From contig BCJC01000009.1 of NCBI GenBank assembly GCA_001600175.1, forward strand, positions 248,001 to 312,000: a DNA stretch of 64,000 bases, written 5' to 3'. Shown piece after piece: positions 4,601 through 42,494 of this stretch; position 1 is the stretch's first letter, and each line of letters starts with the position of its first letter. The notes under the pieces were generated by a model. That model was not told the origin of the DNA and made no database searches. It saw nothing but the letters and a program-made list of their open reading frames with translations. The translations under genes and the position numbers were made by a program. Source of the stretch: Erythrobasidium yunnanense. Taxonomy: Eukaryota > Basidiomycota > Cystobasidiomycetes > Erythrobasidiales > Erythrobasidiaceae.

Positions 4601-7151
4601 GCAGAAGAGGCACTTCAGCTTCAGGCGGATGCCCATCACTGCCGAGGGGTAAGTCAGAGATTTTCTTTGAAACCTGAACAGCAAATCAATACTGTTGCAG
4701 GCCGCCCAACTTTGCAGATGTCGCCGACCTTGTTGAAGTGGCATCCCTGTCTCCTCTGGGCCATTCCGTAATCGTCAACTGTCAACTTGGTAAGCCATAG
4801 TCCGGATGCCAGTGTATCGTCTGACATCGCAAGCAGGTCGGGGACGATCTACTCTCGTATCTATAATGCTTACCCTGTTCAGACAATGGCTGGAATCGGG
4901 CGGCCGAAAACGCGTCTTCGCCGAAGCGCCTCAACATCCTCCGAAAGTGTCGGCATATGCAGTGATCAACAACGTGGGTTACAGACACCGCCTATGTGAC
5001 AGAGGCTGAGATCTCAGCTCAAACAGCTCATCCGTGTTATCCGCAACGGGCGAGAGATAAAGATGCACGTCGGTAAGTAAGAGGCCCTCAGCCTCCTGGC
5101 AAGACTGAACATCTTTTCCAGATTCGGTCATCCAGCAGTGTAGCGAAATTTACAATCTACTGGACGCTATAGAAGATGCTCGGCAAGCAGCGGAAGACGC
5201 ATCTGACGATAAGACTAAGCATGCACGGACAAGACGTGGACGAGACGATCTCCGCAGATACTTCGTTCTCGTGCTGTTTGCAGCTTGGCTGAACGAATCT
5301 GCCGGCGACTCTGTGAAGAGCTTGCGAGAAGAATACTCCTTCGAGCGCTACGTCAACGATCATCCAGGTACGTTAAGCTTTGTCTGATCTCGACCTCGGT
5401 ACTTACCTTTATGATTTCAAAAACTCAGTCTATCAAACCATACTCAAAGAAATCGACGCGGCTGGTGCAGAAGTGCTTTCACCGCTTGGCAATGGAACCT
5501 CATCGGACGAAGTGGCTAGCGACGAGGTCGAAGCAGTAGTAGCGGCACGAGATGGTCGTATTCTATCGAATTCTACCATCCTCAAATCGTAAGTCCTGAT
5601 TGCTGAATGTCTGAGCGACATCTAATGGCTTCGTACAGCGACTTCTTCTCCAATCTTCAGAAGCTCTCTCTGCCGGATCGAGTAGAGGGCGCACCTAACT
5701 ATCGGTGAGGGGTCAATCGCCTTTCAGCTATGGTATGATCTGACTTCGCAGCCTTCAGCCAAACGCCCATGTACGTCGAGATACAGCCTGATGATCTCAG
5801 CGAAGATGACAAGGTGCGAAAATCCATCTATGGAACTGGTATGCCGGCTTTCGATGGGCTTGCACGAGCTCTAGACCGTATGGGAGCAGGAAAAGAAGGT
5901 AGTACCTGGGTATATTGGACCTTGATGCGAGAAGAGCCGGTGATCTTCGTTCGTGGACGACCTGTGAGAATCTTGCGCCAAAGCTTCTTTACATATAGCG
6001 GCTAAATCAGCCCTCAACCACAGCATGTACTACGCTTATTGGCTCTTCCTCTGGAAAACGTCATTACGACTGGTGTGACTGCGGAGAGTGTCGAGGGTCA
6101 AGAGAACGCCCTCAAATCAGACGTCTTGCGGGAGATTGAGAAGCATGACGGCCGCCTCCTGCTTCATGACGAAACCGACGATGGCAACGGTCGTTTCACA
6201 CTCACTGCACAGTGGGAAGACAATATACAAGCGGACGACATTCTCACGCCAAAAGAAGTCTACGAGAGGATGGAAAAAGCAGGGTACCGAGTCGATTACG
6301 CTCGGCTTCCTGTGACGGACGAGCAAGCTCCTATACCTCGAGTGTTTGCCAAGCTGGAAGAGCGTGTGGCAGATGCGCTGCAGCACGGCAATGTCGCTAT
6401 GGCTTTCAACTGTCAGATGGGGCGTGGCAGAACGACCACAGCCATGGTGGCAGCTTCACTCGTGGCAACTCTTCTTCATCCAGAAGATGTAGCTCACAAC
6501 AAGATCGAAGTGTCCCCCTTAAGCGCAGTCAACGATAGCACTTTCGAAATCAGGGAGATTGAGGACCCCTACCTCAACGGAGAATACAAAATCATCTTCC
6601 AGCTGTTGTCTGTCCTGCAATATGGTAAACAAGCAAAGCGCTTGGCAGACAAAGCGATAGATCAGTGGGTACAGTCACTGTGCATGCTTGTATGCCTTTG
6701 ACGTGATTCTCCGCAGATGCGAGGCCGTTCAGAATCTGAGGAAAGCAGTCGCTACTTACAAAATCCAATGGGAGTCTGCAGAGGAGGGCTCGACCAAAAA
6801 GGAAAAGGTCGGAAACCTGGCTTTCAACTATTTGTATCGGTGCGTCTGTGTCTGAGATCTAGGTGAACGACATTGATAGAGAGTGATAGGTACGGCACGC
6901 TTATCGCATTTGCGAACTACCTGCTGGAGAAGAAAGATGCACAGTCCGGTACAATGTCGTCTTCGATAAGCGCACTGGGGCCAGATATCTGGAGAATGGA
7001 TTTCCCGTCGTGTAAGTATTTCACGAGCGTACTCGATAGTGCATGCTAGCAATAAGTAAGCTGCGAGCTGACACTTGTACTCTCAGTCCCTGACTATATG
7101 AGACGTCGCCCTGAAATCGATAGCATCCTCAGGCGCCGAGTTTTGGATTAG
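1698..7151 (+). CDS. paladin-like protein with three tandem PTP/phytase-type phosphatase modules
   Basis: Large cytosolic protein of the paladin / inositol hexakisphosphate-phosphatase-like family. I join 22 exons (for example 1698-2383, 2444-2520, 2580-2686, 2746-2879, 2929-3353, 3408-3610 ... 6024-6664, 6717-6839, 6890-7011, 7087-7151); they sum to 4311 nt and read 1436 aa without a break. A Ser/Gln-rich N-terminus (about 100 aa) is followed by three repeats, each with a leader that ends in a CX5R loop: Cys327 (CGVGVVR), Cys828 (CQLGRGR) and Cys1250 (CQMGRGR). Each is preceded by VxxNC and followed by T-x-A/V-M. Shared linker motifs such as REEPVI[YF][IV] and ADKAIDQCEAV recur after each module. 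The first loop deviates (Val-Val instead of Arg-Gly) and may be weak or inactive. Substrate is unknown; paladins are reported as phosphoinositide or pseudo-phosphatases. Several introns sit at matching places in the repeats, which supports internal triplication. Confidence 0.85.
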
Positions 7152-7700: not shown

Positions 7701-9639
7701 ATGTCCGCCCCAAACCCTTATGCACTTCAGTTAGCTCAACTCGGTAGGTTTACAGTCTATGGTGTGGGCGAAACTGTTCTTATGTCACTTTCTATCAGTT
7801 GAAGCAGCAGGCCTCAGCGCCCCATCCGGTTATGCAGGCCGCCTCTATTTTCATATTACAGCTTGTTGCCTGTAGGTTCTGCCATGCCGCACAACAAAGT
7901 CTCAGAGCTGAGAAACTATCCAGGGTCTTCGTACTATCGATAATCTATCTCGTTCTTTCAGCCCGGGAACACCGTAATAGGGGCAGAAGACTCGCTCTCG
8001 TCCGCCTACAACGCATACGGTCTGGCAACCTGATTGTACTCAACACTCTCTTTGTATTTGTCATCTTCACCGCTCTCAGCTCGGTGGTCTTCATCATTCA
8101 GAAATGGTGGCAGGTCCGGATTTTCGTGCAGAAGAAGGCCCCGTACGATCTCGGTGTGTTAAAGGTGTCCCCGAGAGATCAAGTCGAACTGATTTTCAAC
8201 ACGCACTGCCATTCAGTGATCATCATCATACAAACATGGTCCATGCCTCTCATGTCCGGATGGACCTATATGTGGGCAGCAACGGCACATACAGACGTAA
8301 AATACGTTTGTTGACGGTAAATTTCGCTCACAGATTTTCAAATTTTGCCGCCGCACTGCAAGTGGGGAGAGGTAGGGTCGGCTTCGATGGCGTCTCCCGC
8401 GTACTCGTCAGCCTGCATAACGTGAGCTTCTTCGGGGTTTTCATTACTTTTTTCGCCTCAACGATCGTAAGGCTTCTTGGCAGATCTCAAGTCAGAAATA
8501 GAGGCTGAACGTCATTCTTCCCTCATATCTCTGCTAGCCCATAGCAGTCTATGCCAACAGAGCCTCCAACGATGCCATTGATGCAACACTGGCTCTGATG
8601 GCGTATCTAGACGCAGCCTCCAAAATCCCCAATCCCGCAGACGTCCCAGAAGAGATCAACGCAGCGATCGCAAATGCAGCATCGACCGTCGCATCGCGTA
8701 ACGCTGTATATTTCAAGCTCTTCCGTGGTGTGGTCGGTATCGCTACGGCCACGGTGATCTTGCTTGGTATTATCGCAGTATTGTCTCTTACCTCCGTTCT
8801 CAAGATTCGCAAACGTAGGCAACTATTCTTCAACGCACACACATGCTGATTTATTTGGTCTCGTCAGAATCCCAATGGCACCGCTCAGCTTCAGCTTCAG
8901 CTTCAGTCTTCGTCAGCGTGGAGCAGCGCACAGTAGCAGAAAGAGACAATCCAGATGGAACAGTCGACATGACGAGCTCCTCCCAGCCGGAGCCCACTGT
9001 CCGACCTGTCACCCAGCATCTGAATCTGCCCAGCTTCACCCGCAACCGAGAAGCAGCCAAGAGTGCTAAATCTAAAGCAATGAGTCAGCAACAAAAGGAT
9101 ATTGCAGCTTTACACAGGCTTGCGAGTGACCTTTCGGTCAGCACACCTCTCAGTCTACTGCTTATTGCATTCATGATCGTAGGTCGGAGCCGTAAACTCT
9201 ACTTCGTAAGCTTATGCTACTATATTACAGGGCTGTGGTGTATCTGGAGTCGTGCGCATCGATCGACCTCATTCGTGGGCCGAAGTACGTTCTTGAAGCC
9301 TGTGATCTCGATCTGAAGGATCCACTACTGAAGCAAAGTGCATCTACGCAGATAGAGCTCCTATTGGACGGATATGGATGGGCTTGGGAACCTGTTCACA
9401 TCATCATGCTCTCCGCCTTCATATACAACCTTACCCACAACCCATTGGCGCATAGTAACTGGTCAGGCCAGAAGAATAGCCAAAGTGGTGTGACGAATGC
9501 TGCCGGCACCAATGTACTTTCGATACAGCTACAAGCTTATCCTGCACCCCTTAATGACGGTCTGTCGGATGTCGAACTGAGGAGCAACGAGAAGGCCCTG
9601 GAGATTGATGAGAAAGGGTTTGAAGCAGAACGAATGTAA
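7701..9639 (+). CDS. 7TM-A: seven-transmembrane protein of an unrecognised family
   Basis: I do not recognise this family. Nine exons (7701-7743, 7799-7871, 7924-8153, 8217-8271, 8334-8466, 8538-8814, 8868-9178, 9231-9284, 9352-9639) give 487 aa in frame. The start is fixed by alignment with two paralogs (NPYALQLAQLG here, NPYAVQLAALG in 7TM-B). Seven hydrophobic segments are seen: two near the N-terminus split by a basic loop (REHRNRGRRLALVRLQR), two more before residue 190, one ending in SVLKIRK, and two in the last third around an RIDRPHSW loop. The TM5-TM6 loop is long (about 100 aa, Ser/Gln-rich) and the C-tail is soluble, about 70 aa. The order resembles a receptor, but no known fungal GPCR class is evident by eye. 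It has two more introns than 7TM-B, so intron turnover followed the duplication. Confidence 0.82.
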
Positions 9640-9914
9640 GGTACTTCGCATTCTTTTGATTTCAGTTTGGTATACGGGCGTCACTCGTTTCATCCAAAAT
9701 TCAATATTTTACATGTCACTTGGCTTCATTGCTATCCCACATTTCTCGCCTCCTCAGGCTGTTCTGTTCCCAAATAGAGCTGCGTTCCCGAAGATAGTAC
9801 CGTAATGTGCATCCTTCATCGAAGCTGGCATCTGGCGTGTCACATTAGGCGCGACGAAGGGCGACTAGTATATCGCACACAAACTTTGGTCGGCCAACCG
9901 CCTCATTAACAACC

Positions 9915-10609
9915 ATGACAGACAGCATCTACGTTCGCAAGGACCCTGAAGAACTGAAGTGGCCTTTCCTACTGCGCAGGGACGATGATGGACAGCTCAG
10001 TCTCCTCCTCTGGGTCGACTCGAAGAATGTTGCCGTTTTCAGCTTCACGCGGCCTGATAGTCCAGACAGATGGAACGCATACACGGTCAGGCTTGACAAG
10101 GAACGGATGCAGTGCGTCCAGACATGTCTGGACATCTTCTGGGCATCCTCAATTCTGGACCGCTATTCACCGAAACACAAAGTTCTGCGACTCGCGGTTA
10201 GTAGATTCAGCTCGGATGCTGTTGGTGGGATGATGCAAATCCGGAAAGTAGAAGCTAGTATTCGAAGCAGACATGAGAGTTTTTGGTCAGCTCATAGCCC
10301 CTTCACTGCCCTCGTGCGCTTGCAGGCTGTCAGTCTGACTTTGCTCTGCTGCATGACAGGAGCAATAACGACCGAAATCTCGTAGAATATCTGGCCAAGG
10401 AGCTGAAGTACTGGTACTTTCGCATGTACCGTAAGCCGCCTGCTGTACACGAGCTACTCTTTCTTTGGGGCACGAGCTGAATACTCTGTCCGTCCCCAGA
10501 CGAACTGCAAGAGTGGTATCCATCGCTTGACACAACCTGGTCTACGTATATAGGCTGGTTCTTTGTTCCTCATGAGCCACCTCCCACATGCCCCCTGCCC
10601 ATAGAGTGA
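9915..10609 (+). CDS. hypothetical 183-aa soluble protein
   Basis: Three exons (9915-10285, 10360-10430, 10500-10609) join to 183 aa. Both introns have good borders and the joined frame closes exactly. The protein begins MTDSIYVRKDPEELKWPFLL, shows alternating hydrophobic strands (QLSLLLWVDSKNVAVFSFTR) and then an amphipathic region. The end is rich in Trp, Tyr and Pro (LQEWYPSLD, IGWFFVPHEPPP). There is no signal peptide or membrane helix. I recognise no family. It lies between 7TM-A and 7TM-B, but nothing in it suggests a joint role. Confidence 0.65.
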
Positions 10610-11061
10610 CGCGGTACGAGCGCACGCATTGGCCAATGTTCTGGATATAACATTTCATTGCAGGAATTCAGTCTAGACTATCGATCCCAGCCAAACTTAC
10701 GAGTTGAGCGAACCCACGGGTTCGCGTGTTTTATGACTTTCGAAAATCTAGGCTCAATGCATTGGGCACTGAGTGGGCTGTATCATTTACGCTATCAGTG
10801 ATGATCGATACACGACACTCCAGTTGTTGGTCTAGAAGCCTACCGACCTCACTCGGAAGTTACATGCTAGAAGCGAGGGCGGCGCTCTCAAGCAGGCTCA
10901 GACTATTTAATGGGAGATGATTGCTGTATTTCCTTCTCTCTTTCTCTTCATCTCCCTCGTCACCAAGATACTGCTACAGCCACTTCTGCACTCTACATTT
11001 CCCTATTCACCAAGATACTCCTACAGCCACTTCTGTACATCGATCCCTGTCTTTCCCATCC
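10610..11061. other. intergenic, 452 bp: leader region of 7TM-B
   Basis: No supported gene. The last 150 bp are pyrimidine-rich (TTCTCTCTTTCTCTTCATC) and contain a 31-bp direct repeat, listed separately. Confidence 0.55.
10961..11038. repeat. 31-bp direct repeat in 7TM-B leader
   Basis: Copies at 10961-10991 and 11008-11038 (CACCAAGATACTSCTACAGC...) differ at two positions and are separated by 16 bp, giving a 47-bp period. The second copy ends 23 bp before the ATG. The sequence is unrelated to the repeat before 7TM-A, though the position is the same. Confidence 0.88.
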
Positions 11062-12843
11062 ATGTCCTCAGACAATCCTTACGCTGTTCAGCTGGCTGCA
11101 TTAGGTGAGTTCACAGATATGCCCTACCTTTATCTCTACACTAGTCTCATGCCTTCCACCAACAGTAAAAGCATCTGGCGGCGAGCCACCTTCTTCCTAC
11201 CCGAGTCGTCTGTATTTTCATATTACAGCGTGCGGAACCATCTTCCTGCTATCCATAGTCTATCTCCTTTTTTCGTACCGGGAACATCGAAACAGGGGTA
11301 GACAGCTCAAACTTGTCCGGCTACAGCGTCTACGGTCTGGAAACCTGATCGTCCTCAACACACTCTTCATATTTGTGATCTTCGTTGCACTGAGCTCGCT
11401 GGTCTTCATCTTACAAAAGTGGTGGCACCTGCGCATCTTTGTTCAAAAGAAGGCGCCCTATGATTTGGTGGTCATCGGAGTTCAGTGCTGGACAGGGCCC
11501 CTTTTGAGCGGCGCATGCTTCATGTAAGACTTCTCCATGTCTCTTGCGGTAGCAAACTGACGTTTTGCCTCTACAAGCTACTCCAACGCGGCGGCGGCAT
11601 TGTCTATGAATCGAGGCGGAGCCGGCTTCCAAGGCACCAGCCGTGGGCTCATTGCACTCCATAACGCAAGCCTGATTGGAGTTCTCATCTTTTACTTTGC
11701 GACAACGGTTGTAAGCGCCTTTCCAGCTGATTTCATCGACCCTGCTAATCACGATATTAGCCAATTTCTTTAGCCGCGAATAAGGCCGAGAACGGCGTCA
11801 TCGATGCTGCGCTCAGTCTAATAGTCGGATTGGGTGCAGCCTCCCAAATTCCCGACCCTGCAAACGTTCCAAGCGAGCTCAATGCTGCCATTGCGCAAGC
11901 GGCCTCGGACATGCAGACACGCAACGCCCAGTATTATAAGCTGTTCCGCGCGCTCGTCGGCGTAACCACAAGCCCCACGATCTTCCTTGGCCTCGTAGCG
12001 GTATCGAGCTTGACGTTTGTGCTCAAAATTCGCAAGCGTAGGTGGACTTTCGCTTTCAGAGGAGGTTCGATAATGACTTGTCCCCACAGAGGCGAAATGG
12101 CACGCGAGTCGGGTGTCAAATTCAGTCTTCGTCTCAGTCGAGCAGCGAACAGTTGCAGAATCCCCAGAGGGAATAGTCGATACCGTTACTACGAATCCCC
12201 AGGGGCTTACAGCCGCTAGACCTATCACTCAGAACTTTGGTCCTCCTCTTACACCCAGCTTCGTCACACGCGGAGAAGCAGCAAAGAAAGCTCAAGGCAA
12301 GATTCTTAGCCAGCAAGAGAAGGACATAGTAGCTCTTGGACGCCTCGCCCGCGACCTATCCGTGTCCACGCCGCTTATGCTACTACTTATAGCTTTCAAT
12401 GTCGTGAGTAGCACATCAAGTTTCGCGCGCCCCGTACTGAAACCTTCAAAGTCTTGCGGGCTGATCGGCGTCATCAGAATTGATCGCCCTCACTCCTGGG
12501 GTGAGGTATGGTCTATACATTGTGTCTGTTACATTGGCTGATATCTGTCTCTGTATTTCAGATAGAGCTGCTTCTCGACGGATTTTCCTATTTTTGGGAA
12601 GTAGTTCACCTGTGCATTCTCATAGGCTTTATCTACAACCTCACTCACAATCCGTATGAACATGCGCAATGGTCTTCGCATCAAGCTAGCCAAAGCGGCG
12701 CCGTCAGCAACAACGTGCTGTCAATACAAATCCCAAGCTATCCCGCTCCTCTTGGCGATGGACTCTCGGATATCGAGTTGAACAGCGTGGAAAAGACATC
12801 AGCCGCACTGGACGAAAAGCGCTTCGATAATGATCGGATGTAG
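11062..12843 (+). CDS. 7TM-B: seven-transmembrane protein, paralog of 7TM-A
   Basis: Seven exons (11062-11104, 11166-11523, 11578-11710, 11761-12037, 12090-12403, 12452-12505, 12562-12843) give 486 aa. Exon 1 is 43 nt as in 7TM-A, and the TM5 exon is 277 nt in all three paralogs. Predicted helices lie near 32-53, 74-98, 123-143, 159-183, 241-269, 352-377 and 390-413. Best conserved between A and B are RNRGRxLxLVRLQRxRSGNLIVLNTL, FVQKKAPYDL, the loop with IPxPAxVP, VSVEQRTVAE, RLAxDLSVSTP and IRIDRPHSW. The loop between TM5 and TM6 is about 85 aa, and the tail carries an acidic-Ser stretch (DGLSDIELNSVEK). Function unknown; a plasma-membrane receptor or channel is possible. It is convergent with the SET gene, 122 bp away. 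Confidence 0.83.
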
Positions 12844-12965
12844 AGCTTCCAGAAATATAGTTTGCGAATTTTTTTCAATAGGGTCACACCATTCGTCAAA
12901 GTCTCACAGGATGTAGAGCTTTCAAGTCTTATTTCATGTAGTACCACAATCGTTACAGTCTGTCG

Positions 12966-14802
12966 TTACGTTTTCCTGCTCTTCTTGGTTTGTAAGGAAC
13001 TCGATTCTTTGGCTTCTTCGCGCTGCCGCTTCTTCTCTTCTCGCAGTTCCTTCTTGCTCATTGTCTTTTGCTTCTGCGCTGGCTCTGCGTCCACGAGCAT
13101 TCCTTCACTGCTTGACGTCGGAGGTGGCAGTTTCGCCTCGATCTCGCCGATGAGCTGTTTAAGGATTTTCATCTCGCCGTGTCGAACAACAATAGCACCT
13201 TTGAGTCTTTCAGAGAGACTTTCAGGCTGCTCTAAAGCTTTCGCATCGGCCTAAAATCCCTGTCATCAGCTAGATCTCCGGCTCCATTGGCAGACAACTC
13301 ACTTCGAAAGAATGCGGATATTCGCCAAGCCGCTTGGTAAAGATATCTTTGGCTAGACGTAGCAGTCGCAAATCGTCCTTGACCCCCTTCTTCGAAACTT
13401 TCCCCTTCTTCTGCATCTTCTTGAAAGCTTCCGCATCAGCCGCGAATATGGAGATAGCCGTTAGCAGCTGTTCCATCTCTTCTTCATTATCTTCGAGTGT
13501 GAAGGCATAGACACTGCGCGTGCATTAGCTTCGAGCCAACAGATCTAGTCGGACGGCAACTCAACTCGTCCAAGTCTGTACTAAGGAGGAACTCGATCCG
13601 TTCTTGTCTTGAGCCTGAGCACGCTACATCGGCGATTAGATCTGCCTTGATCTCGACTAGATCTGCTGGATTGTCGAGATCGACCTGGAAGCTTCCCTTC
13701 AGATTAGGATTTATAAGCAGGCTTGACTTTCTACTTACATGCCCATACCGACGCAACAGGTCTGAATTAGGAGGATCGCCATAGACATTCCACTGCGAGC
13801 AATTGTTTCAGTCCTAATTTCCATGAAAGTCTTGGTGCAACAGCTCACTATTTGTTCGCCTTTGCTGATGGCTTTGGTTGAGCACATGTTCAGGCAATCC
13901 TTTTCGTAGAACAAGCGTGCGTTGTCGCAGCCGTGCCGTGCATTGAGCATGTCCGCCCACGGTACCATCGAGACATGAAGGACACTTTCGCTCTCGTCAT
14001 CGTCCTCTTCATCGTCTTCCTCGCTATCTTCGCCATTCTCCTCAGCTGCTTGAGCATCGTCTAATGCCTTGTCACCGCCTGACGAGCTTGCCATGCTAGT
14101 GTCACCATTATTTTGCGCTTCATCATGTTGCTCGTCTTCTGGTTCTTCAACGTGAAAGCTTCGCGATAAGATCGAGCTGCCCATGCGATTGTAGAGGTTG
14201 ACATCGTACACTTCTGACTTCTGGAAGACATCTTGGCGGCTTTGTATTAAGGGTTTTATCAGATTATGGAAGTCCGCCTGTGCTTCTTCTTTGCCGATTT
14301 TGTCTATAGAACTTGATTAGACGTGTGCGTAGATTAGACCGATGCAGAGTACAGGCGCACCCAAGACTGCCGACCCGCGTAGCTGTTTCAGCTCGGCTTT
14401 CGACCAAAACATCAAGCTGTCGAAAGCTGTTGGCATGATATCGAAGTATTCCTTCCAGAGACTATCAGGTTGCTGACTCTCCCACATCATGCTCAAGATA
14501 AGCGGCGTCCAGCCAGTCAAATTTTTCCGCTCGTCTTCGGTTAGAAGGGTCCATAGTCGCGATGTCTGAGTGTTTAGGAGGAGCGTACGAGGGATAGAGA
14601 AGAGTACAGTGTCACTCTGCGCAAGAAGACGATTATCAGCCGAAAGTCGTCTAGGCTGCGTCTCGGTTCTTCAATGCACAGGAATATCGTCGAGAGCTAT
14701 CGCGCCGCGTCCCATCCCAGGGAAAGTAGTGAGGCCAACAGCGTCATGCTGTGTGCCATGTCGCTTGAACCATGCAATAAAGGCTGTCGCTTGAGGATCC
14801 AT
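12966..14802 (-). CDS. SET-domain protein lysine methyltransferase, SETD6/Rkm-like
   Basis: Likely S-adenosylmethionine-dependent lysine methyltransferase of the split-SET group (SETD6, Rkm, Rubisco LSMT), acting on non-histone proteins such as ribosomal subunits. Seven exons (14802..14680, 14616..14361, 14303..13849, 13792..13739, 13696..13566, 13513..13303, 13232..12966) give 498 aa. An N-SET (GMGRGAIALDDIP, LFSIPRTLLLN) is followed by a helical insert, including an acidic EEDDEEDDDESES tract. The C-SET follows: MVPWADMLNAR, DNARLFYEKDCLNMCSTK, then IWNVYGDPPNSDLLRRYGH, where the catalytic Tyr and the SAM-binding region lie. After it come a substrate-binding-like helical domain and a Lys/Glu-rich tail (KKELREEKKRQREEAKE) that may be a nuclear signal. 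The last acceptor was chosen because the alternative 19 nt upstream breaks the frame. Confidence 0.85.
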
Positions 14803-15083
14803 CGATACGGCATGAGCGAAGGTCACGACTCACTATTCCATGGCACCGCAACAAATCTGTTCTGGTAGACGGGAGCCTCATAGTCCCCTTCGGATGCATA
14901 TATTTTATATTGCAGCTCTCTATCCGCATACCTCTCATCTATACCGCCCCGCAATACTTTGCCCGTTCCCTCATACAACCCGAAAACGTCACATCAAATA
15001 CATCCGCGTTAATTGCTGTAGTCCCATCTATACAGTGTGGTTCCAGCGTAAAATCATTGCGCAGTCTCCGGCATCTGTCATCA

Positions 15084-16819
15084 TCAATGCTTTTCATCCA
15101 TCCCCAACTCCACAGCTTCCATTTTCTCAGACGGATCCGCTGGGGTAACGCGCAGATCGGGATAGTTGATGGGTGGATATGTCTGCAGATGAACAGCAAG
15201 ACCGCCCCGCTCGATTGGCACTACTTTCGATATAGTCGTTTGGTGATCTGATGAATGCAGGCCGTGCTTGAGCGGATTCCGAATCAGATTCCAGATGAAG
15301 CATGCCAGGATCAATGTATGTAAAGGTGCCCAGATGTAGGAGATCCCATCTAGGAACAGCTCGAGTTCGGACCATTTGCGTCGTCCCGAATGGGAGATTC
15401 TCGCAGCGCCGATAAGCACGCAAGTCTGCAGAAACGTATGATCATCGTCAACCGTCTACTTAGATGCAAGCTATGTGAATGAGCCTACGGTCGAGAAGAT
15501 CAGCGATAAAAGTATGCAGGGTGTTGAGATGGAAAGGTCTCTGGCCAAGCGGCTCAAAGCGACAACGTCGTTACTGCGGCTGTCTTGATGAGCAGTCACG
15601 TCTCGTTTTCGTTGGAAGAGGGCTGTCATGCTGCGTCCTGGAAGCTCTGCTGATTGTGAGGGCGAGCTCTTAAAGGTGCGGGTGAAGACTGCGCCGTCGG
15701 GTCCCTCGGTGTAGGTCTGCTGCTCCACATTGACCATGACAGAGGGTGCTAATCTAGTGGTGTGCCATTGCGCCTCTTGTGCGACAAGAAAAGTCAGCTT
15801 TAATGCCTTCGCACGTGAGCTACTGTTAGCTTACGCTTTCGCAATCTGAGCACGAAAGTCAAAGACCAGGCAGCCAGAATGCTCAGCGAGCCGGTGAAGA
15901 AGGCTGTTATCCCGACTAGAGTCCGTAGTCCAGTGTAGTATGTCTGTAGCTGGTGCTGCAGGTCGGCAGCCAGCTGCATGACACGCTGACTTGTCTGCTT
16001 GTCCACATCAAGAGGATTGCTGATCTGTGCTGCTACCGCCAACGCCTTTCCTAGCGCAGCCTGCGTATCAAGCGCGCGATTCTCGCTCGCGTTGACCCAT
16101 ATGGAGATTGGCTGACAAGAAGAAATGTTTAGACCGCTCAGTACGGACACATTTACCAGCCTACTTACGATAGTTGTAGCGAGATACGCGATGGTTCCGC
16201 CGACAAGAGCACCGTTATGGGCGAAGATGGCCCAGGATCCGATCGACTCGAAGCCTGTATTGTGACGGCGTAGCTGCAAAGCAGCCGCCACGTTCGAGAA
16301 AGTATACAGCAGAGCACTAGCTAGAGGCAGAGTCCAGTTTTGCGCGACAAAGATCAACAGGTCGTGCGCGTCTTCGCCATGCACGAAAGTTTTTAGTTGT
16401 CGCCATTTGGCCAAAATCGAAATAACAGCGGCCAAAATCACGCAGATGACGAAAAGAAAGAGAGTGTTGAGTACCAGAAGCTTTCCAGAGCGTAGTCTTT
16501 GGAATCGGATAAGAGCCAGACGGCGGCCTCGTCGTCGATGCTCCCTCAGAGAAAGCCCGAGGTATATGACTCCGAGAAGGAGCACGCTACAGATGGAAAG
16601 GTTTGTCAATTAGGACTCTGTATTGACAGATGGGTATGACATACAGGAAACACATAGCGATATGATAGTAGAGCCGAGCTTCGTAACCGGCAGGTGCTTG
16701 GTTAGCTGCAGCAGCTTGCACTGCGGAATCAGATCTCGGTCAGTCACTACACTTATAACACAGCTGTACCAGGTGTACGTACTCAGCTTGGCGAGCTGAG
16801 CTCGGTAAGGATTCTCCAT
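15084..16819 (-). CDS. 7TM-C: diverged third paralog of the seven-transmembrane family
   Basis: Six exons (16819..16783, 16720..16645, 16586..16169, 16111..15835, 15775..15489, 15425..15084) give 478 aa. MENPYRAQLAKL matches the starts of 7TM-A and -B; a further in-frame ATG at 16843 would add eight residues. Shared landmarks are GYEARLYYHIA, REHRRRGRRLALIRFQRLRSG, FSNVAAALQLRR, the PIS motif at the TM4 intron, the 277-nt TM5 exon, QWHTTRLAPSVMVNVEQQT and LARDLSISTP. The intron at 16168-16112 is 57 nt with no stop, so retaining it would insert 19 residues without shifting the frame. It is less similar to A and B than they are to each other, and it lies in opposite orientation across the SET gene. 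This suggests an older duplication plus inversion. Function unknown. Confidence 0.8.
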
Positions 16820-17860: not shown

Positions 17861-18709
17861 ATGGCTTCTGAAGAAGTCAATTGTGGTCCTGCGCCTAATA
17901 TGCCTCAGGTTACTTGCAGCATTTCCCGCTGTCCAGATCACATCCTGATGTTTCGGTAATCAGTCGGTGATGGACGCAGCGAAACTTCCTCCAAAGATTA
18001 CAGATACGCACATCTTCTTCTTTGGCTATGATGTCGGCTATCCAGAAGACTGCTTTCAACAATGGTACCCTAGCGAATTCGTCGAGCCTGCTTTGGACAA
18101 CGCGACTTTCACGACGGCCGAGCAATACATGATGTATATGAAGGCACAGATCTTTGGCGATGCAGAGACAGCACAGAAGATCAAGGATAGCAGCACGCCT
18201 GCAGAAGCCAAGACGCTAGGCAGACAGGTCAAGAACTTCAACCAGGCGGTGGGTGGTCGCTTCGATTTCTTCGACTCGATTGAGCGAGAAACAGTAGCTA
18301 ACTTGTTATTCATCCTTTGGTAGATCTGGGATGCAGGATGCGACGCCGTCGTGGAAAGAGGGAACTGGCTCAAGTTTGGACAAGATGAGAAGCTTACCCG
18401 AATACTGCTTGGGACGGAACACAAAGAGCTTGTCGAAGCTTCACCTAATGACAGGATCGTGAGTCGTGCTACCACACGTTTAGTGCCCATTATGGACCAT
18501 ACTGACTGGTTGCTTCTGCCGCTTCGCAGTGGGGAATCGGCTTCAATGCTAACGATGCTGAAGGGAACGAAGGCAAGTGGGGATCGAACAAGCTTGGCAA
18601 GGCCTTAATGAGGGTCCGGGAAAGGATCAAGGCTGGAGAGTCGGAAGGGACATGGCCTAGGATAGTCAAGCTGGAGGGCTGCACATCCTGCAGTAGTTGC
18701 TGCAGCTAA
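17861..18709 (+). CDS. NADAR-domain protein (YbiA/RibX-like N-glycosidase family)
   Basis: Likely a NADAR family protein. Members act as N-glycosidases on riboflavin intermediates or ADP-ribosyl-guanosine. Exons 17861-17908, 17964-18293, 18324-18458 and 18530-18709 give 230 aa. Family landmarks, in order, are IFFFGY, PSEF, FTTAEQYMMYMKA (the conserved YMM[YH]xKA helix), GRQVKNF, KFGQDEKLTRILLGT, LVEASPNDRIWGIGF and WGSNKLGKALMRVR. The first intron has an unusual GTTACT donor, so the N-terminal 16 residues are less sure. The C-terminus ends in a Cys-rich GCTSCSSCCS, not typical of the family, possibly metal-binding or lipid-modified. The neighbours give no pathway link. Confidence 0.85.
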
Positions 18710-27715: not shown

Positions 27716-29691
27716 TTACAATTTGCCTTGGTTGCTGAGAACACTGTGTGGGGAGAAGACGTAGGATTTGGCGTTAGCATGGGGCCCGGCCGGACGCAAA
27801 TAAGCAGAACGACATACCCAAGAGTGATGCCAAGGGCTAGAGCCTGTGAGAAGATTTTGGGTCAGCAAACTGCGTTTAGGCCGTAATTTGAAAGCTTTGG
27901 GCTTGTAACTTGCAATCACTGCAAGGACAATAAGATTAGCCTAAGAACTACTGCATTTCTATTGCGATTTTACTTGCCTATCACAACCAAAATCCAGAAA
28001 CAGATGACGCCTGTGAAAAAGCGATTGCAGGTTAGTTTGAAGTCCGACCATGATCCAGAAGCAAAAGACTCACGCTTCCTTCGAGCCTTTCGGGCGGACT
28101 TAACGCCTGCAACCAACAAGTAGTATCTCAGTATGCTGTAATCACTATCTTGCTCTTGTGACAGCCGGACCTTTCTCGATTTGTTGGTTGCCCTAATACG
28201 ACAATTGGATCAGCACGTATGCGGCAGACAGAAATACAAACTACACTTACTGCTTGCATATTGGTCTCAACATCTTGAGCAGATGCTTCGATAGTCTAGG
28301 CAAGTATCGAAAGTCAAAGCACAATCTTGACGGGCAAGTCCCATAAGGCTCTCGACCCACCTGAATCTGCTCATCCTGTCTCTCGACAAGCGCAGCTAGG
28401 TCATTGAAGATCTGCTGGAGTTCCGTCATTGTTTCCGCGATTCTTTGAATGTCCGCATGTCTCTCCTGGACTTCTCTATATGCGTTTCTAGCATCTGCGT
28501 ATCTCGTAGACTGCGTCAATGCGTTCGCAAACACTTGAGAGCCTTGGTCCGTGTCCATTGCGTAGCGGATCTCCTCTTGAGTAGCGTCGGGCTTGACGAT
28601 CTTGTATTGACGCTCCATGCGCGCGCGGTGCTTCTCCCGAGATTTGGCTTCGACTTCGCGGTATTCTTGAATCAAGTCCATGAACCTGGTCACACAACCA
28701 TCAACATTTGCGAAAATCTAGAGTATGAACTCGGCCCACTTCTTCTTCTGCACGGCGACCTGCATGCGACGGGTGTTTCGCTCGCCTTCTTTACCGGGAA
28801 CATTAGGTTCCCTATCATTGAGGTCCGATAAGTTCTTGATACGAAGTTTGATGCTATTTGTCATGCGAGACGTCTCGGTCGTGATTCGGCTGAGCTCTTG
28901 CTGGGCTTGTTCTTGACGCTCCTCATTGGTCGCACTGTTTAGTACAGTTGTATGCAGCTGACTGATCTGCCCGATGTTGCTCTTGAGCTGTTGTAGACTT
29001 TGCGAGATGTTCTCAATCTGTTCGGAAGAAGCACATGGTGAGTTTGAGGACGGTCTTTCGGCGAGGTGGGAAGACTGACCTCTGCGAAGAACTCGTTCAT
29101 ACTGCTCTGTGGGCCCAAGGCAGGCGCTCCATTGCCGTATTCTTGACCTGCTCCCGCTCCGACCTGCTGCATTTCGTACTGATCCTGCCCTCCCGCTGGC
29201 ATCTGGCCTGGCGCTCCTGCATATCCTTGCTGAGCAGCTCCTACTGGGTACGCAGCTGGCTGTTGCCCTGCGTATCCTCCTGCTCCAGCACCAGCTTGAC
29301 CGCCTCGACCAGCCTGCGGGGGCGCTGCATATCCGGCTCCTTGACCTTGCTGAGCGTAGTTTGAAGGCTCATTGTAACTGATTCGCACATTGACAGCACA
29401 TCAGCCTCGGTTCTCTGCGATCTTCCTCGACTCTGGCTGGCATATGGCCCTCCTAAGACCGCCCGAAAGTATCCAAATTGCAGCTTACGCAGGTTGCTGA
29501 GGCGCAGAGAATGTAGGAGATCCTTGTTGCTGCTGAATAGGGCTGCCTGCTTGCTGTGGGCCCACACCTCTCGCCCGGTCTCGCTCAGCCTGCCCAGCCC
29601 AGCCAGAATATCAGCCCATTTCGTTCCGACTTTCGCTGCTCGCTGTTCGCCGTGTTCTGACCTTCATTTGTGCGAGGCGATCACGGCTCAT
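27716..29691 (-). CDS. Sso/syntaxin-1-type Qa-SNARE, copy 2, with fragmented C-terminal exons
   Basis: Second tandem plasma-membrane t-SNARE. Exons 29691..29662, 29589..29489, 29377..29080, 29017..28740, 28685..28361, 28295..28251, 28192..28171, 28106..28074, 28010..27978, 27918..27914, 27843..27818 and 27743..27716 sum to 1224 nt (407 aa). MSRDRLAQMK is followed by a Gly/Gln/Ala-rich linker, then Habc (MNEFFAE, ENISQSLQQLKSNIGQISQL) and FMDLIQEYREVEAKSREKH. The SNARE helix has AREVQERH-like text and zero-layer Gln in VERQDEQI. Basic KSARKARRK precedes an anchor reading VICFWILVVIVIALALGITL. To get that anchor in frame I need a 5-nt microexon between two introns with GC donors (AG|GCAAGT and ATT|GCAAGT). 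The alternative is one longer intron with a GTGATA donor, which shortens the helix by three residues. The 3' end is therefore tentative; the rest is firm. Confidence 0.85.
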
Positions 29692-30013
29692 GACTTCTTG
29701 TTGGGAGTTTGAGGTTTGGAGGAAAGAGCTGGCTCCGAAATAAACAGAAGTCGAAAAAGCAGGGAGAAAGCAGACGTAAAAGCTCTTTATGGCTTTCTGA
29801 AGCAGTCCTGCAGCACCAAAAAGAGCCAGAAGTGTCAGAGAAAGCCAGCTGGAATCGCAACTCTTTGCAACCTATTCTGGACACAAGGTGATGTCAAGGC
29901 TATTGCACGTGCTAAGGAAGAAAGCTATACACAACAGAAGCTCTATGTAACAGACACTGAACACTATATACATCCTATCGGGACTAGTTACGAGAAAAGC
30001 GGAAGGAGACTCT
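29692..30013. other. intergenic, 322 bp between syntaxin copies 2 and 3
   Basis: Promoter and leader of copy 2 plus the 3' end of copy 3. No gene signal. Confidence 0.45.
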
Positions 30014-32166
30014 CTAGTCAACATCTGCGAACTGAGCCACGGCTGCCGAAGGAATGGGAGACCCGACATTCGCATTGCCTCCAGCGGCAGCTGATGCTTG
30101 AGCTCCATTGTCGCCTCCGCCGCTTGCAGTGCTGGCAGCCGCAGCCGTAGTTCTTGCTGCTGCCGCATTGTTGCCCGCGCCCGCTGCAGAGCTCGTTTGA
30201 GCAGCTTCCCGAGTCGTGGTAGCAGTGACCGTCCTGACGACTTCTTCCTTGTCTTTGTTTTTGTTCTCGTTGATCTTCGGAATCACGTACTTCAAGACGA
30301 CAAGAACGACCGTCACGGCGACGGCTATTAGAATCAGAATAGCGATGCACCAGCAGATCTTGCGCTTTCTTCGTGCTCCCTTTGCAGAGACGACTGCTTT
30401 TGTGATCTCGTTATGGCCGGTTTCCATGTCGCGGACGACTTCTTCGGCCTGCATAAAAGCCAAATGAGTAGGTGTAAGATGTATATGTTGTTTGTGTAGA
30501 CTGACCTTTTGTTCAATATGTATGATCTGCTCGTCTTGCTCCTCAACCATGCTGCCGGCGAGTGGTCTTAGCAAATGAGCGCAAGACACTTAGTAAGGGA
30601 GACCTACACAGCCATGTCTTGGAATAGCTGGAAGAGCTCGACTAGAGTCCTTTCAATCTTCTTGATGTCTTCGTGCCTGTTCTGAACATCGTTCAAGACG
30701 CCTCGAGCGTCTGCTGAGCGTTGTGATTGGCGGAGCTGTACATCAACGTCAATGCTTAGCCGAGTCTCATATAGATATATGAGACGACCTACCGCCTGCG
30801 CAAAGACCTGTACTTCCTGTCCACCCTCTACGACCTGTCTGATCTCCTCTGGGGATGCATCTGGTTTAACGATCTGATACTGTCTTTCAATCTTATGTTT
30901 CGCCTTATCGCGGTTCCTCATCTCCATATTCTGATACGTCTGCACGATCTCCAAGAACTTCTCTCTGACAGCCCCGATCTGGGCTTTGCGATTCTGACGT
31001 TCCTGTTCCGCTTGTCCGTGTGTGCGAATACGTGTAGTCTCTTGCAAGTCCTTGATTCGATTCCGGAGGTTGTTGGTCAGCTTGCGTGTCTGATCGGCTA
31101 CTTGTTCGAGCTCTTCGACCACTTCATCCCCGCCTGAGCCAGTCAAATTGCGCGAATGAAGCTGGTCCAAGTACGATATATGGTTCTCCAGATCTCGGAA
31201 AGCAGAACGTATCGATCCAATCTCGTCGAAGAACTCATTCATGTCGATGACCGGAGCATTGCTGACGATGTTGCTGTCATTATTCATAGTTGGCGAAGGT
31301 GTTACAGGTGCGTGATTCAGCGGTATCTGGCGACCTCTGCTGTCTTTATGCAGTACTGGGACTTGATATGTCTCTGGATTGGCTTGGTAGCCGGTAAGAT
31401 TCCTAGTCTTGCCCTGCTGAGGTGGATAGCCTTTGAACTTCTCGGGATTGCCATAGTCAGTACTAAGAGCTACCTGGCTGGCATTCTTCTCGTAGTACGC
31501 GGAATCATCTTCTCTAGCGCCATAGTAATTCTGTTGGGTCGGCGGAGGAGGAATCCTATCGGCTTGATTATAGCTATCCTGCTGTGGTCGTTGCTGCTGC
31601 TGTTGCTGCCTTCGCAGTGACCTAGAAGCTTCACGAGTAGACGGCACAGGTGGTATCGCTTGCGAGTAGTCCTGTCTACCTTGCTGCAACTGGTCCTGCT
31701 GGTACATTCCTGCGGCCTGCGATGGCCTCCGCCTCGTCTGTGCTCTCGCTCGCTGACCACGCGTATCCTCATCTTGTCCATCATGGAAGTTGACAGGCGA
31801 AGTGGGAGCCTGCTGGGCGTAGTTATCGCGTCCGCCAGCGGCATATGCAAGGTTGTTGTTGTAGCTTGGCGCGGGTCCTGGACCGCGAGACTGAGGGTAG
31901 CCATAGCCAGGAGCTTCTTCATTGTTACGAGATGCATATCCATAGCCATTATCCCTATTCGAGTGCAAGAAGTCAACTGATTGTCCTCGAGCATTCCAGC
32001 CATCCGCTGGGCGCGCCGTCGAGGTCGGCTTCGCTCACTGCTGCTGAGGATAGCGAGGATCTGGCGCAGAATAGCCAGCATTCTGCTCTTCGTACGATGC
32101 ATTGCGGTTGTGCGTTCTTTGCGCTGCTTGCTGCTCTCGCATTGCTTTCAATCTATCGCGACTCAT
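30014..32166 (-). CDS. Sso/syntaxin-type Qa-SNARE, copy 3, long with a luminal/extracellular tail
   Basis: Third tandem syntaxin. Five exons (32166..32039, 31954..30793, 30735..30608, 30551..30506, 30448..30014) give 632 aa, far longer than the usual 280-360. MSRDRLKAMREQQ matches copies 1 and 2. About 270 residues of Gln/Tyr/Pro/Arg-rich low complexity follow. Habc then begins at MNEFFDEIGSIRSAFRDLENHI; the intron found here in copies 1 and 2 is absent. KIERQYQIVKPDASPEEI is shared with the others. The SNARE helix (VQNRHEDIKKIERTLVELFQLFQDMAV, then MVEEQDEQIIHIEQ) keeps the zero-layer Gln. After KGARRKRK and the membrane helix (ICWCIAILILIAVAVTVVLVV) come about 100 more residues, Lys/Glu-rich then Ala/Ser/Gly-rich. 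Normal syntaxins end within a few residues of the anchor. Confidence 0.88.
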
Positions 32167-39728: not shown

Positions 39729-40949
39729 TTATACTTCGGCATCCTCATACCTCAACAGGTCCAGCATGTCCAGCTTGTCTAACAGTTCTTGCGTTTCCAA
39801 TGTTATACCTTTCGAACGAGTCGCCTGGTCCACGATCCTCCGCAGATGTGCCCTTCTGTAAGGCATTTGACGCGACCATGGTCCCTCAGATTCATCAAAC
39901 CCTATTCTGATGCGTTGGATGTTTCTGCTTGGCCATTCATTATCCATGAATAGCATCAGGCACTCGAGCAGTTGCGCCATACTCTTCGCCGCTATAACAA
40001 AGTGCTTGAGGCCATACGGCAGGTTAGGTATCGACTCCCGCAGTGATAAATCACGCCTGAAGCCGAGGTCGAGCTTCTGCAGTATCGGCAAACGCTCAGA
40101 GCTAGTCACAAAGATGTTCCGGTCCAACGGCGTATAGACCCGTAGCGCCAGATACGTCAAGCGCTCCCAAATATGCTGACCACAGACGTCGATTACTGAG
40201 GTGATGATTGGCGAGGGACAAGCCAACGCGTAGAACCTCAAAATCTCGAGATGTTTCGGAGATGCCAAGGCCATGCATTCAAAAAGATCCTGGGCACTCT
40301 CCATGAACATGATCTCCAGCTGTTTAAGCTCGTGCAGAGAATGCTCTGGGCCTCCCATAGACCGGTCACTTGACCTGGTGAATATGTACAGGCCGACCAA
40401 AGATCGGAAGTGAGAACAATCTCGGAAGAGTGTATGTTTACGATTCTTGGACTTGTGAAACGTGATGGAGAGGCTCTGAAGCCTCTGCAGCGCAGGCAGT
40501 TGGGCGAGATTCTGGATGAATGCGCTGATATCGGAGGAGGTGCCAGAAACCCACAAATAGAGGTGTGAGATATCGACACAGTGCACGAGACAATCCTTTA
40601 CTCTTGCCATGAGCATCGTCCATGACCCTTCGGTTGGCGAATCGTCCGTCGCAATAGCTAGATAGCGCACCGGCGCCATACTCTTGAAGCCAGTTCCGTA
40701 TCTAGCTGCGTTCGAGGAGATCTTGTCGAAGTCTTTACAGCTGAATAGCTGCTCGTATAGCAGAGGTACCGCGATGGCAGACAGGCGTCGGGACACCAGG
40801 GCCAAAGCGCATAGATTGGCCCTGGTGCGCCTGGCCTTCGGTTCCACGTCCCATTTGCAGAGATAGCTATGATTCACGAGCTCCTTCGACTGAAACTCGC
40901 GAAAGATAGCAGTGAGAACTTCGCTGGGCAGATCCGAGAGCGTGGTCAT
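39729..40949 (-). CDS. F-box protein, copy 1
   Basis: Single-exon 406-aa protein. MTTLSDLPSEVLTAIFREF is the N-terminal F-box helix (LPxEVLxxIF), which binds Skp1. ALALVSRRLSAIAVPLLYEQLF completes it (LVSRRL..iA.PLLYe.l). The rest is a run of weak leucine-rich repeats (LQRLQSLSITF, LHELKQLEIMF, PKHLEILRFYALACPSP, LPILQKLDLGF). It probably selects substrates for an SCF ligase. It is a tandem paralog of the gene at 41262-42494 (same start, same repeat order), and lies convergent to uL15m. Confidence 0.85.
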   Translation of the reverse strand: MTTLSDLPSEVLTAIFREFQSKELVNHSYLCKWDVEPKARRTRANLCALALVSRRLSAIAVPLLYEQLFSCKDFDKISSNAARYGTGFKSMAPVRYLAIATDDSPTEGSWTMLMARVKDCLVHCVDISHLYLWVSGTSSDISAFIQNLAQLPALQRLQSLSITFHKSKNRKHTLFRDCSHFRSLVGLYIFTRSSDRSMGGPEHSLHELKQLEIMFMESAQDLFECMALASPKHLEILRFYALACPSPIITSVIDVCGQHIWERLTYLALRVYTPLDRNIFVTSSERLPILQKLDLGFRRDLSLRESIPNLPYGLKHFVIAAKSMAQLLECLMLFMDNEWPSRNIQRIRIGFDESEGPWSRQMPYRRAHLRRIVDQATRSKGITLETQELLDKLDMLDLLRYEDAEV

Positions 40950-41261
40950 CTGGGATGCATGTCAGCTATCTGAGCCATCGCAGACGAGTCTGTATATCTA
41001 CCGATAACGTAGAGCGTTGCTCGGCTCTCTTTGCAAGTTGGAGTGCTCCGAAGCTGTCGTCTGGGAGGTAGGCTGCTATCTATCTGCATCTGCATGATGA
41101 TTTCGATGTCACTTCCTCGGAACACAATACAATACAACCACTACAACACGTCTGATGCTGGACGTTATCTGCCCTTCCAGCTATCTGTGAAAAAAAAAAA
41201 AACAATGATGTGCTTAACTAGTTTGTCCAAAGCGAGTGTGCATCAGGGCCTGGCATATCTA
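40950..41261. other. intergenic, 312 bp between the F-box pair
   Basis: Promoter of F-box copy 1 and 3' region of copy 2. It includes a run of 13 A (41190-41202). Nothing else supported. Confidence 0.5.
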
Positions 41262-42494
41262 TCAGCTACTGGAGTCCCATGCTTCCAAAGCACCTACTTG
41301 ATCCATTATGTCTTCCGGTGCCAGAACGATGCCTTTTGATCGGGTACCGTCCACCGCCTGTTGCGCGACGCTCAGCAGGTGTGCCATCGTATATGTCTCT
41401 TCACCCCAACTGTTCTCAGGCCTCTCATCAAAGTCTACTTCAATGCAGTGCATTCTCTTCCCTAGCCAATCCTTGCTCGCGATTAAGGTCAAGCTGTCGA
41501 GCAGCTGGGTCATGTCGCGCGGCGCGATGCAGAACAAGTCCAGACCGTGAGGCAGGATAGGAACAGAGTCTCCTAGCGGAGTATTAACTGGAAGGCAGAG
41601 CTTCAGGCGTCGCAGCCCCGGCAGGCGACTAGCTCCTCTTAAGAACGAATCTCGGGCCAAGGATGATTCGCAGTCTAATTGAAGAATCGCCAGAGATGTC
41701 CATGTGTCATGTCCAAATATTTGAGGAACTGATGTAATCGACGGAGAGGCCGAATGCAGTCCCCAGAATTCTAGTATCTCGAGGCTATTCGGGCATGCGA
41801 GTGCCATGCATGCAGACGTCTCTCGCGCATTATCCAGGTAGGCGGTCTGTAGGTGCTTCAGGTGAAGCAAAGGTTGGTCTGGACTGGCTATCGACTGCAT
41901 AGACTTCCCAACGACGATCCCGAGTCCAGTCAAAGCTTGGAACTGACAGCAATCTCGAAAGAGGTCATGTCTCGCATCCATAGACCTTTCGAGTCGGACC
42001 TGAAGGCTTCGTAAATTCTTCAACACTGGGATTTTCGCCAGATTGAGTATAAAAGCGCTATTGTCAGAGCATTTTCCGGAGATCTCCAGGCAGAGATGCA
42101 AAATCTTGGTACATTGCACGAGATGTTTGCGCAGCGTTTGTAGGAATTCCCCTGGGAGTTCCCCTGCAACCGTATCAACCACCTCAATCCGTAAGTAGCG
42201 GACGTATGACATGCCACGGAGGCCCGCTCGACGATCGAGCCTGTTCCGGATAATCCTCAAGAGGATTTTGTAGATATCTTCGGGGTCGAACAACTGCTCA
42301 TAAAGGAGAGGGAGCGCGATCGAAAACAGGCGTCTCGAGACCAGAGCCAAAGAGCAGAGGTTGGCTCTGACAGCTAGAGCATCTGGCTCTACGATCCAGT
42401 TGCAGAGGTATTTGTGGTTGGTGAGCTCCTTCGACAGGAACTCGCGAAAGATAGCGGTGAGGATCTCGTTTGGAAGGTCTGTGAGCGTAGTCAT
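41262..42494 (-). CDS. F-box protein, copy 2
   Basis: Single-exon 410-aa paralog of the preceding gene. MTTLTDLPNEILTAIFREFLSKEL and LALVSRRLFSIALPLLYEQLF form the F-box. Leucine-rich stretches follow (ILHLCLEISG, LKNLRSLQVRLERS, LKHLQTAYLDNA, SLEILEFWGLHSASPSI, LPGLRRLKLCL). Residues ANLCxLALVSRRL and the spacing to each repeat agree with copy 1, but the repeats are strongly diverged, so the pair is not recent or the substrates differ. Both copies lack introns in the repeat region, unlike most genes here. Confidence 0.85.
   Translation of the reverse strand: MTTLTDLPNEILTAIFREFLSKELTNHKYLCNWIVEPDALAVRANLCSLALVSRRLFSIALPLLYEQLFDPEDIYKILLRIIRNRLDRRAGLRGMSYVRYLRIEVVDTVAGELPGEFLQTLRKHLVQCTKILHLCLEISGKCSDNSAFILNLAKIPVLKNLRSLQVRLERSMDARHDLFRDCCQFQALTGLGIVVGKSMQSIASPDQPLLHLKHLQTAYLDNARETSACMALACPNSLEILEFWGLHSASPSITSVPQIFGHDTWTSLAILQLDCESSLARDSFLRGASRLPGLRRLKLCLPVNTPLGDSVPILPHGLDLFCIAPRDMTQLLDSLTLIASKDWLGKRMHCIEVDFDERPENSWGEETYTMAHLLSVAQQAVDGTRSKGIVLAPEDIMDQVGALEAWDSSS

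Follow-up and report, generated by a model that had tools for sequence, protein, structure and literature searches.

The 64,000-nucleotide stretch of DNA analysed here (the window) raises the question of what three of its gene products, the seven-transmembrane (7TM) proteins A, B and C, might be. An earlier note had taken them for paralogues of an unrecognised family with the shape of a receptor, and the spliced gene models (Table 1) bore out the protein lengths and motifs that it had given. In translation, the N-terminal motif reads NPYALQLAQL in A, NPYAVQLAAL in B and NPYRAQLAKL in C, and the basic loop between TM1 and TM2 carries HRNRGRRLALVRLQRIRSG, HRNRGRQLKLVRLQRLRSG and HRRRGRRLALIRFQRLRSG, respectively. 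The VxVEQxT motif appears as VSVEQRT in both A and B and as VNVEQQT in C, and the segment before TM6 contains LASDLSVSTP, LARDLSVSTP and LARDLSISTP. B is 63% and C 41% identical to A. The TM5 exon has the same length, 277 nt, in all three genes, as had been claimed. A and B are not directly adjacent, having a plus-strand open stretch between them, and minus-strand open frames (about 12966-14670) separate B from C.

Table 1 Genes A, B and C and neighbouring features, in positions of the window
Feature	Position	Strand	Remarks
Gene A, 487 aa	7701-9639	+	9 exons; open frame, GT-AG introns, homology to six paralogues
Gene A exons	7701-7743, 7799-7871, 7924-8153, 8217-8271, 8334-8466, 8538-8814, 8868-9178, 9231-9284, 9352-9639	+	spliced model
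A 277-nt exon (TM4 end, TM4-TM5 hairpin, TM5)	8538-8814	+	gene model, intron comparison
Open stretch between A and B, outside 7TM family	about 9915-10385	+	no Pfam match
Gene B, 486 aa	11062-12843	+	7 exons; open frame, GT-AG introns, homology to six paralogues
Gene B exons	11062-11104, 11166-11523, 11578-11710, 11761-12037, 12090-12403, 12452-12505, 12562-12843	+	spliced model
B 277-nt exon (TM4 end, TM4-TM5 hairpin, TM5)	11761-12037	+	gene model, intron comparison
Gene C, 478 aa	16819-15084	-	6 exons; open frame, GT-AG introns, homology to six paralogues
Gene C exons	16819-16783, 16720-16645, 16586-16169, 16111-15835, 15775-15489, 15425-15084	-	spliced model
C 277-nt exon (TM4 end, TM4-TM5 hairpin, TM5)	15835-16111	-	gene model, AlphaFold model

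Five full-length queries and one partial query taken from C, run against the 20.9-Mb genome, located two more pairs, D and E on C2 and F and G on C4, bringing the family to at least seven members; the description as a cluster of three paralogues is right for the locus and understates the family. Likeness between clusters reached z values of 19.5–39.0 over 16 pairs (A–E against F and G, and A–C against D and E), measured against a null in which residues were shuffled inside 20-residue blocks so that local hydropathy was kept. Family homology is far beyond chance, intron positions are common to the family members, and the paralogy of A, B and C is supported. In D and E the stretch matching the 277-nt exon is split as 217 + 63 nt. 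Members of each of the three clusters group with one another, and local duplication at three separate clusters is the pattern seen. Between A and B, pN is 0.26 against a pS of 0.72, a mark of amino-acid constraint; with synonymous sites close to saturation or beyond it, we press no dN/dS value. It is this constraint and the local duplication that are observed, and the earlier suggestion of selection on copy number found no measured support. Prokaryote and viral contigs, searched with the 257-aa frame of C, which can detect close relatives only, gave 70 and 36 pattern stretches, none of them confirmed by tblastn.

Averaged over the alignment, hydropathy has seven peaks of at least 1.5 (at A43, 85, 124, 173, 251, 372 and 408). 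Member by member, with a cut at 1.0, three of the seven proteins (A, C and G) have seven segments and four (B, D, E and F) have eight, so that the claim of seven helices stands for the alignment, with never fewer than seven, and is qualified by an eighth stretch in 4/7. That stretch always lies within the TM4-TM5 loop, with a mean of 1.04–1.62 and an alignment average of 1.03; in B it reaches 1.62, equal in strength to TM3 (1.58) and TM7 (1.63). The long TM5-TM6 loop is real as well, measuring 103, 96 and 89 aa in A, B and C (19-residue windows) where 85–100 aa had been claimed. All seven members have 6–10 K+R in the TM1-TM2 loop against 1–3 in the N-tail, and the seven hydrophobic peaks and this basic first loop favour an N-out, C-in orientation. 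One other pair of loops points the other way: the TM2-TM3 loop, outer if the N-terminus is out, has 3–4 K+R in six members (0 in G), the TM3-TM4 loop, then inner, has 1–3 in 7/7, and in 5/7 members the count is higher in the former. No repeat of TM1-3 or TM1-4 was found inside TM5-7 (hhalign probability 0.8 and 0.5%).

Conservation, taken as the mean BLOSUM score of each region over the family alignment, is highest in the TM1-TM2 loop (2.27), the N-tail (2.26) and the pre-TM6 segment (2.05), followed by the TM6-TM7 loop (1.82) and the post-TM5 segment (1.71); it is lowest in the hairpin (0.62), the TM3-TM4 loop (0.43), the middle of the long loop (0.41) and the C-tail (0.22). The long TM5-TM6 loop is thus conserved at both ends and not in its middle. 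Conservation does not fall cleanly on the inner face, given the low score of the TM3-TM4 loop and an N-tail and one outer loop that match the inner parts. The seven-member alignment has 27 invariant columns, among them asparagines in TM2, TM4 and TM7 and a sole invariant cysteine, C37 in TM1; no charged residue is invariant within the predicted helices. The short TM6-TM7 loop keeps an acidic pair (WxxxExxxD), and the N-terminal NP(F/Y) is present in six of the seven members, F carrying DPF instead.

Rhodopsin-like GPCRs are marked by D/E-R-Y at TM3, NPxxY at TM7 and an outer disulphide, none of which occurs among the 27 invariant columns. Against Pfam, hmmscan of the seven members at E ≤10 returned 11 families, each in a single member, under HMMER filters that discard most matches above about E 0.1; with no family common to two members, we ascribe these matches to membrane-helix composition. 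DUF4006, FtsX, MS_channel_TM1 and EBP all fell under their curated cut-offs, and receptor models, including STE3, Git3 and DUF6534, were absent from the Pfam matches of the seven. NCBIfam gave four weak matches, each in one member (E 0.15–0.96), and PDB chains gave none at E ≤10 with either the seven-member or a five-member profile. In Pfam, NCBIfam and PDB, no named family matched convincingly, in line with the earlier view of an unrecognised family, and no clear match to a transporter, channel or sterol family emerged that would have spoken against it; A–G look like a real family without named relatives in these libraries.

AlphaFold, given the read-through frame of C (TM1-5 only), returned a model that is poor overall (mean pLDDT 60.7, pTM 0.41) and that, at this quality, cannot reveal a receptor fold. 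It does place a helical hairpin between TM4 and TM5 with good confidence (pLDDT 78–92 per ten-residue block over residues 171–230, against 31–66 with a single sequence in place of the window paralogues). Its arms are predicted at residues 167–193 (about 16108-16028) and 203–256 (about 16000-15839), the second continuing into TM5. Foldseek with this model gave 540 matches at E ≤10; the best had E 0.12, and no match reached E 0.001. The best 50 of the 540 were mostly BAR-type domains and ABC-transporter chains; a GPCR chain ranked 29th (E 0.75, TM 0.18) and a helical hairpin of 69 residues ranked 33rd (TM 0.75 by target length). At the model's confidence, these matches carry no meaning.

We tentatively read A, B and C as members of an orphan family of receptor-like 7TM sensors with a putative function and an assumed location in the plasma membrane, and give this reading slightly less than an even chance. 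The N-terminus and the hairpin, built from extensions of TM4 and TM5, would lie outside, where the hairpin and the conserved TM6-TM7 loop may help to sense an external cue; the basic first loop and both ends of the TM5-TM6 loop could form the surface on which a signalling partner docks inside the cell, either a heterotrimeric G-alpha or a partner of the arrestin/ESCRT type reported for fungal pH sensors. Tandem copies would be distinguished chiefly by the hairpin, the centre of the long loop and the tail, so that they could respond to different cues or at different times. The fuller proposal is somewhat unlikely: a new class of basidiomycete cell-surface receptors that sense through an outer TM4-TM5 hairpin, share the (N/D)P(F/Y) N-tail, the basic TM1-TM2 loop and, ahead of TM6, LxxL...(D/N)L(S/T)...P, have duplicated locally at three sites of one genome and signal by G protein or arrestin-type partners. 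Because many unclassified fungal 7TM proteins are already reported (141,666 seven-helix proteins outside known GPCR classes in one survey, PMC12842992), A–G amount to an interesting orphan family rather than a new principle. Most fungal GPCRs are described as orphan receptors in the abstract of PMC13308352, and a family as compact as this one, its seven paralogues marked by clear motifs, common intron positions and duplication within local clusters, offers a tractable test case for whether orphan families are receptors.

One branch of the sensor reading, that these proteins form an undescribed fungal class of genuine GPCRs and couple directly to heterotrimeric G-alpha, is unlikely as a whole, although G-protein coupling of A–C is possible. 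The receptor-like outline claimed earlier is there, with a long third inner loop conserved at its ends. A G-alpha model scored above cut-off at seven places in the genome, two with identical scores, and the genome appears to encode several heterotrimeric G-alpha proteins; on the other side stand the missing GPCR signatures, the lack of a receptor match in Pfam or PDB and the lack of fold support. STE3 pheromone receptors are fungal 7TM proteins with an outer N-terminus, and Git3/Gpr1 nutrient receptors are 7TM proteins with a long third inner loop. Both share the seven helices with A–G, Git3/Gpr1 also the long loop, and the STE3 orientation is the one favoured for A–G, yet PF02076 (STE3) and PF11710 (Git3) are absent from the Pfam matches of the seven members; the genome's STE3 matches lie on C10, and its Git3 search gave no match but neither did the controls, so it says nothing on absence. 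For the DUF6534 proteins of Agaricomycotina (PF20152), a published survey proposes a role as novel GPCRs, based on machine-learning scores and on pairing with G-alpha in AlphaFold-Multimer (PMC12842992). They too are multicopy 7TM proteins of basidiomycetes that fall outside the classical GPCR classes and are of unproven function, but PF20152 is not among the Pfam matches of A–G, and at E ≤1 it matches the genome at five places (two above cut-off), all of them outside the three clusters. Together with the STE3 matches, these five point to Basidiomycota as the source of the DNA. The other branch, sensors that signal independently of G proteins in the manner of the alkaline pH pathway's PalH/Rim21 or Rra1, we regard as distinctly unlikely. 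These are described as 7TM proteins, Rim21 with an outer N-terminus and a cytosolic C-terminus (PMC10421798), and Rra1 and its basidiomycete orthologues, with 7–8 predicted helices, as not resembling PalH significantly (PMC4393102). These descriptions stress the C-terminal tail in signalling, whereas the tail of A–G is their least conserved region, and they describe Rra1 homologues as highly similar between distant basidiomycetes, whereas A–G diverge strongly inside one genome.

Outside the sensor reading, it is quite unlikely that A–G are seven-helix transporters, channels or lipid exporters with the TM4-TM5 hairpin as a tuner. Many 7TM proteins are not receptors, and the invariant asparagines and the acidic pair could bind an ion or substrate; against this, the helices hold no invariant charge, the internal repeat present in some transporters is missing, and the sub-threshold matches of C to FtsX, MS_channel_TM1 and EBP are confined to one member each. 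Structural or trafficking membrane proteins without a sensing role, kept as dispersed duplicates, appear more improbable still. NP(F/Y)-type motifs serve as endocytic sorting signals, and the one in A–G resembles them, but such a use would require an inner N-terminus, and the charges of the first loop favour an outer N-terminus.

The three paralogous seven-helix membrane protein genes of the window (A, B and C) belong to a family with at least seven members in this genome. A fragment of C, run against the assembly (G000; 10 contigs, 20.9 Mb in total), recovered C, B and A together with two places on contig C2, where D and E lie. A weak place on contig C4, detected by E, A and D as queries (best E 0.017, 0.31 and 6.1e-6, respectively), turned out to contain two genes, F and G; no eighth member was found in the assembly with F and G as queries. 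The queries comprised full-length A, D, E, F and G and the fragment of C, with B and full-length C left out. Because the search works exon by exon and scores the best candidates only, seven is a lower bound. The earlier note had described a cluster of three, which is present but forms only part of the family.

Family members and other features (window positions unless a contig of G000 or another stretch is named; L008 carries neighbours of D and E, L062 carries frames downstream of G)
Feature	Location	Strand	Description
A	7701-9639	+	487 aa, stop-free translation of predicted exon model
B	11062-12843	+	486 aa, stop-free translation of predicted exon model
C	16819-15084	-	478 aa, stop-free translation of predicted exon model
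D	contig C2		524 aa, exon model
E	contig C2		471 aa, exon model
F	contig C4		481 aa, exon model
G	contig C4		464 aa, exon model, uncertain
PTP-like phytase frame	6006-6698	+	above Pfam cut-off
NADAR-domain frame	17952-18320	+	above Pfam cut-off
Syntaxin-like frames	28718-32034	-	two, adjoining; one above Pfam cut-off, one just under
F-box-like frames	39729-42494	-	two, adjoining, 410 aa; both above Pfam cut-off
F-box-like frames	L008 61-1128 and 2003-3472		both under cut-off
LtrA-matching multi-helix frames	L062 2615-3621	-	one above Pfam cut-off, one under
STE3 match	C10 9109-9981	-
STE3 match	C10 47901-48773	+
DUF6534 match	C10 20701-20925	+
DUF6534 match	C10 36957-37181	-
G-alpha match	C6 1957262-1958580		score identical to the next
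G-alpha match	C9 5206-6524		score identical to the previous

The gene models are predictions, with exon ends picked by hand and the paralogues as guide. Their 52 introns are GT-AG (51) or GC-AG (1), measure 48–72 nt with a single exception of 115 nt, and in 42 cases hold a YTNAY branch-point-like word. Every shared motif that had been read from the sequence was found in the translations of A, B and C, as was the TM5 exon of equal length (277 nt in each). In G, an in-frame stop lies in a stretch aligning with part of one F exon (G000:C4:280667-280781); the model bypasses this stretch via a longer intron, giving a shorter TM2-TM3 loop. The longer intron may be real; alternatively, G could be a pseudogene. 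Around the window cluster, the phytase frame lies about 1 kb before A and the NADAR-domain frame beyond C.

Identity to A is 63% for B, 41% for C, 25% for D, 26% for E and 21% for both F and G, and 27 columns of the seven-member alignment are invariant. Compared with 100 shuffles confined to 20-residue blocks, which preserve local hydropathy, the 16 inter-cluster pairs scored z of 19.5 to 39.0; the likeness among members is beyond chance. The first intron occupies the same column in all seven genes, with phase 0 for F and G and phase 1 for the other five. Further common introns are one of phase 2 in six genes, three in five (A-E) and one in four, with the eleven remaining column-and-phase positions confined to one gene or one pair. 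In a tree midpoint-rooted for display only, branch support was 100/99 for A+B+C, 98/97 for D+E and 100/100 for F+G. Each cluster thus groups on its own side of a branch, and most likely every cluster expanded through local duplication. A and B differ at 26% of nonsynonymous versus 72% of synonymous sites, F and G at 33% versus 72%; judged from these coding sequences, the amino-acid sequence is constrained in both pairs, and synonymous sites are close to saturation.

Topology was read from a simple 19-residue hydropathy scan rather than a trained predictor. The scan gave the seven segments proposed earlier in three members but eight in the other four, the eighth always within the TM4-TM5 loop and, in B, equal to TM3 in strength; averaged over the alignment, seven peaks reached at least 1.5 and the eighth stretch 1.03. 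The TM1-TM2 loop holds 6–10 K+R in each member versus 1–3 in the N-tail, a difference in favour of an outer N-terminus and an inner C-terminus. Speaking against that orientation, K+R are more numerous in the TM2-TM3 loop than in the TM3-TM4 loop of five members; the two loops are equal in F, and the TM2-TM3 loop has fewer in G. Of the topology signals, the basic first loop is still the strongest.

Comparison with known families was consistent with the earlier claim that the proteins match none of the familiar fungal GPCR classes. Pfam searches with each member at E up to 10 returned 11 families, every one in only one of the seven; no PDB chain matched the profile at E up to 10, and NCBIfam gave four weak matches. 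Neither TM1-3 nor TM1-4 aligns with TM5-7 as an internal repeat. The STE3 matches of the genome lie on contig C10, and its DUF6534 matches lie outside the three clusters. Git3 had no match in the genome, where its control was also undetected, so this silence says little on absence. On C10 the two STE3 matches, and likewise the two DUF6534 matches, are mirror images (coordinate sums 57882), so that this contig, which holds the pheromone receptor, looks either palindromic or wrongly assembled.

For structure prediction we folded a contiguous frame of C spanning most of TM1 to TM5, with exon pieces of A and B as the remaining alignment rows. The frame includes one short intron read as coding sequence, and its initial six or seven residues come from an intron. 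The model was poor overall (pLDDT 60.7, pTM 0.41) but contained a helical hairpin from after TM4 into TM5 (residues 171-230, block pLDDT 78–92). The same blocks reached 31–66 in the single-sequence model, indicating that the hairpin signal is carried by the paralogues. Foldseek with this partial, low-confidence model, a check that the earlier note had proposed, gave no match at E <= 0.001.

A 2025 survey reports 141,666 fungal seven-helix sequences that were not recognised as GPCRs; they fall into 1,969 clusters, and the ten largest include some that are predominantly without Pfam domains (PMC12842992). By itself, an unassigned seven-helix family is therefore unsurprising. Our non-exhaustive, untargeted literature search returned no description linkable to the seven-member family.

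The best conserved regions are the TM1-TM2 loop, the N-tail, the segment before TM6 and the short TM6-TM7 loop; TM2, TM7 and the segment after TM5 come next. The C-tail, the middle of the long TM5-TM6 loop, the TM3-TM4 and TM2-TM3 loops and the hairpin are the least conserved. If the proteins are receptors, a partner would dock at the first loop and at both ends of the TM5-TM6 (third inner) loop, whose counterpart for the cue would be the variable hairpin. A rule of conserved inner and variable outer parts is not simply obeyed, the TM3-TM4 loop being variable and the N-tail conserved. The G-alpha model scored above cut-off at seven places in the genome, in a search whose one control scored under it. 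G-alpha partners thus probably exist, which has no bearing on contact with the seven-helix proteins. The two identically scoring matches differ in strand, and one sits close to the beginning of C9; together they look like a chromosome end that was recently duplicated.

Besides these, F-box-like frames both occur in the window and neighbour D and E, syntaxin-like frames adjoin one another in the window, and the LtrA-matching frames lie downstream of G.
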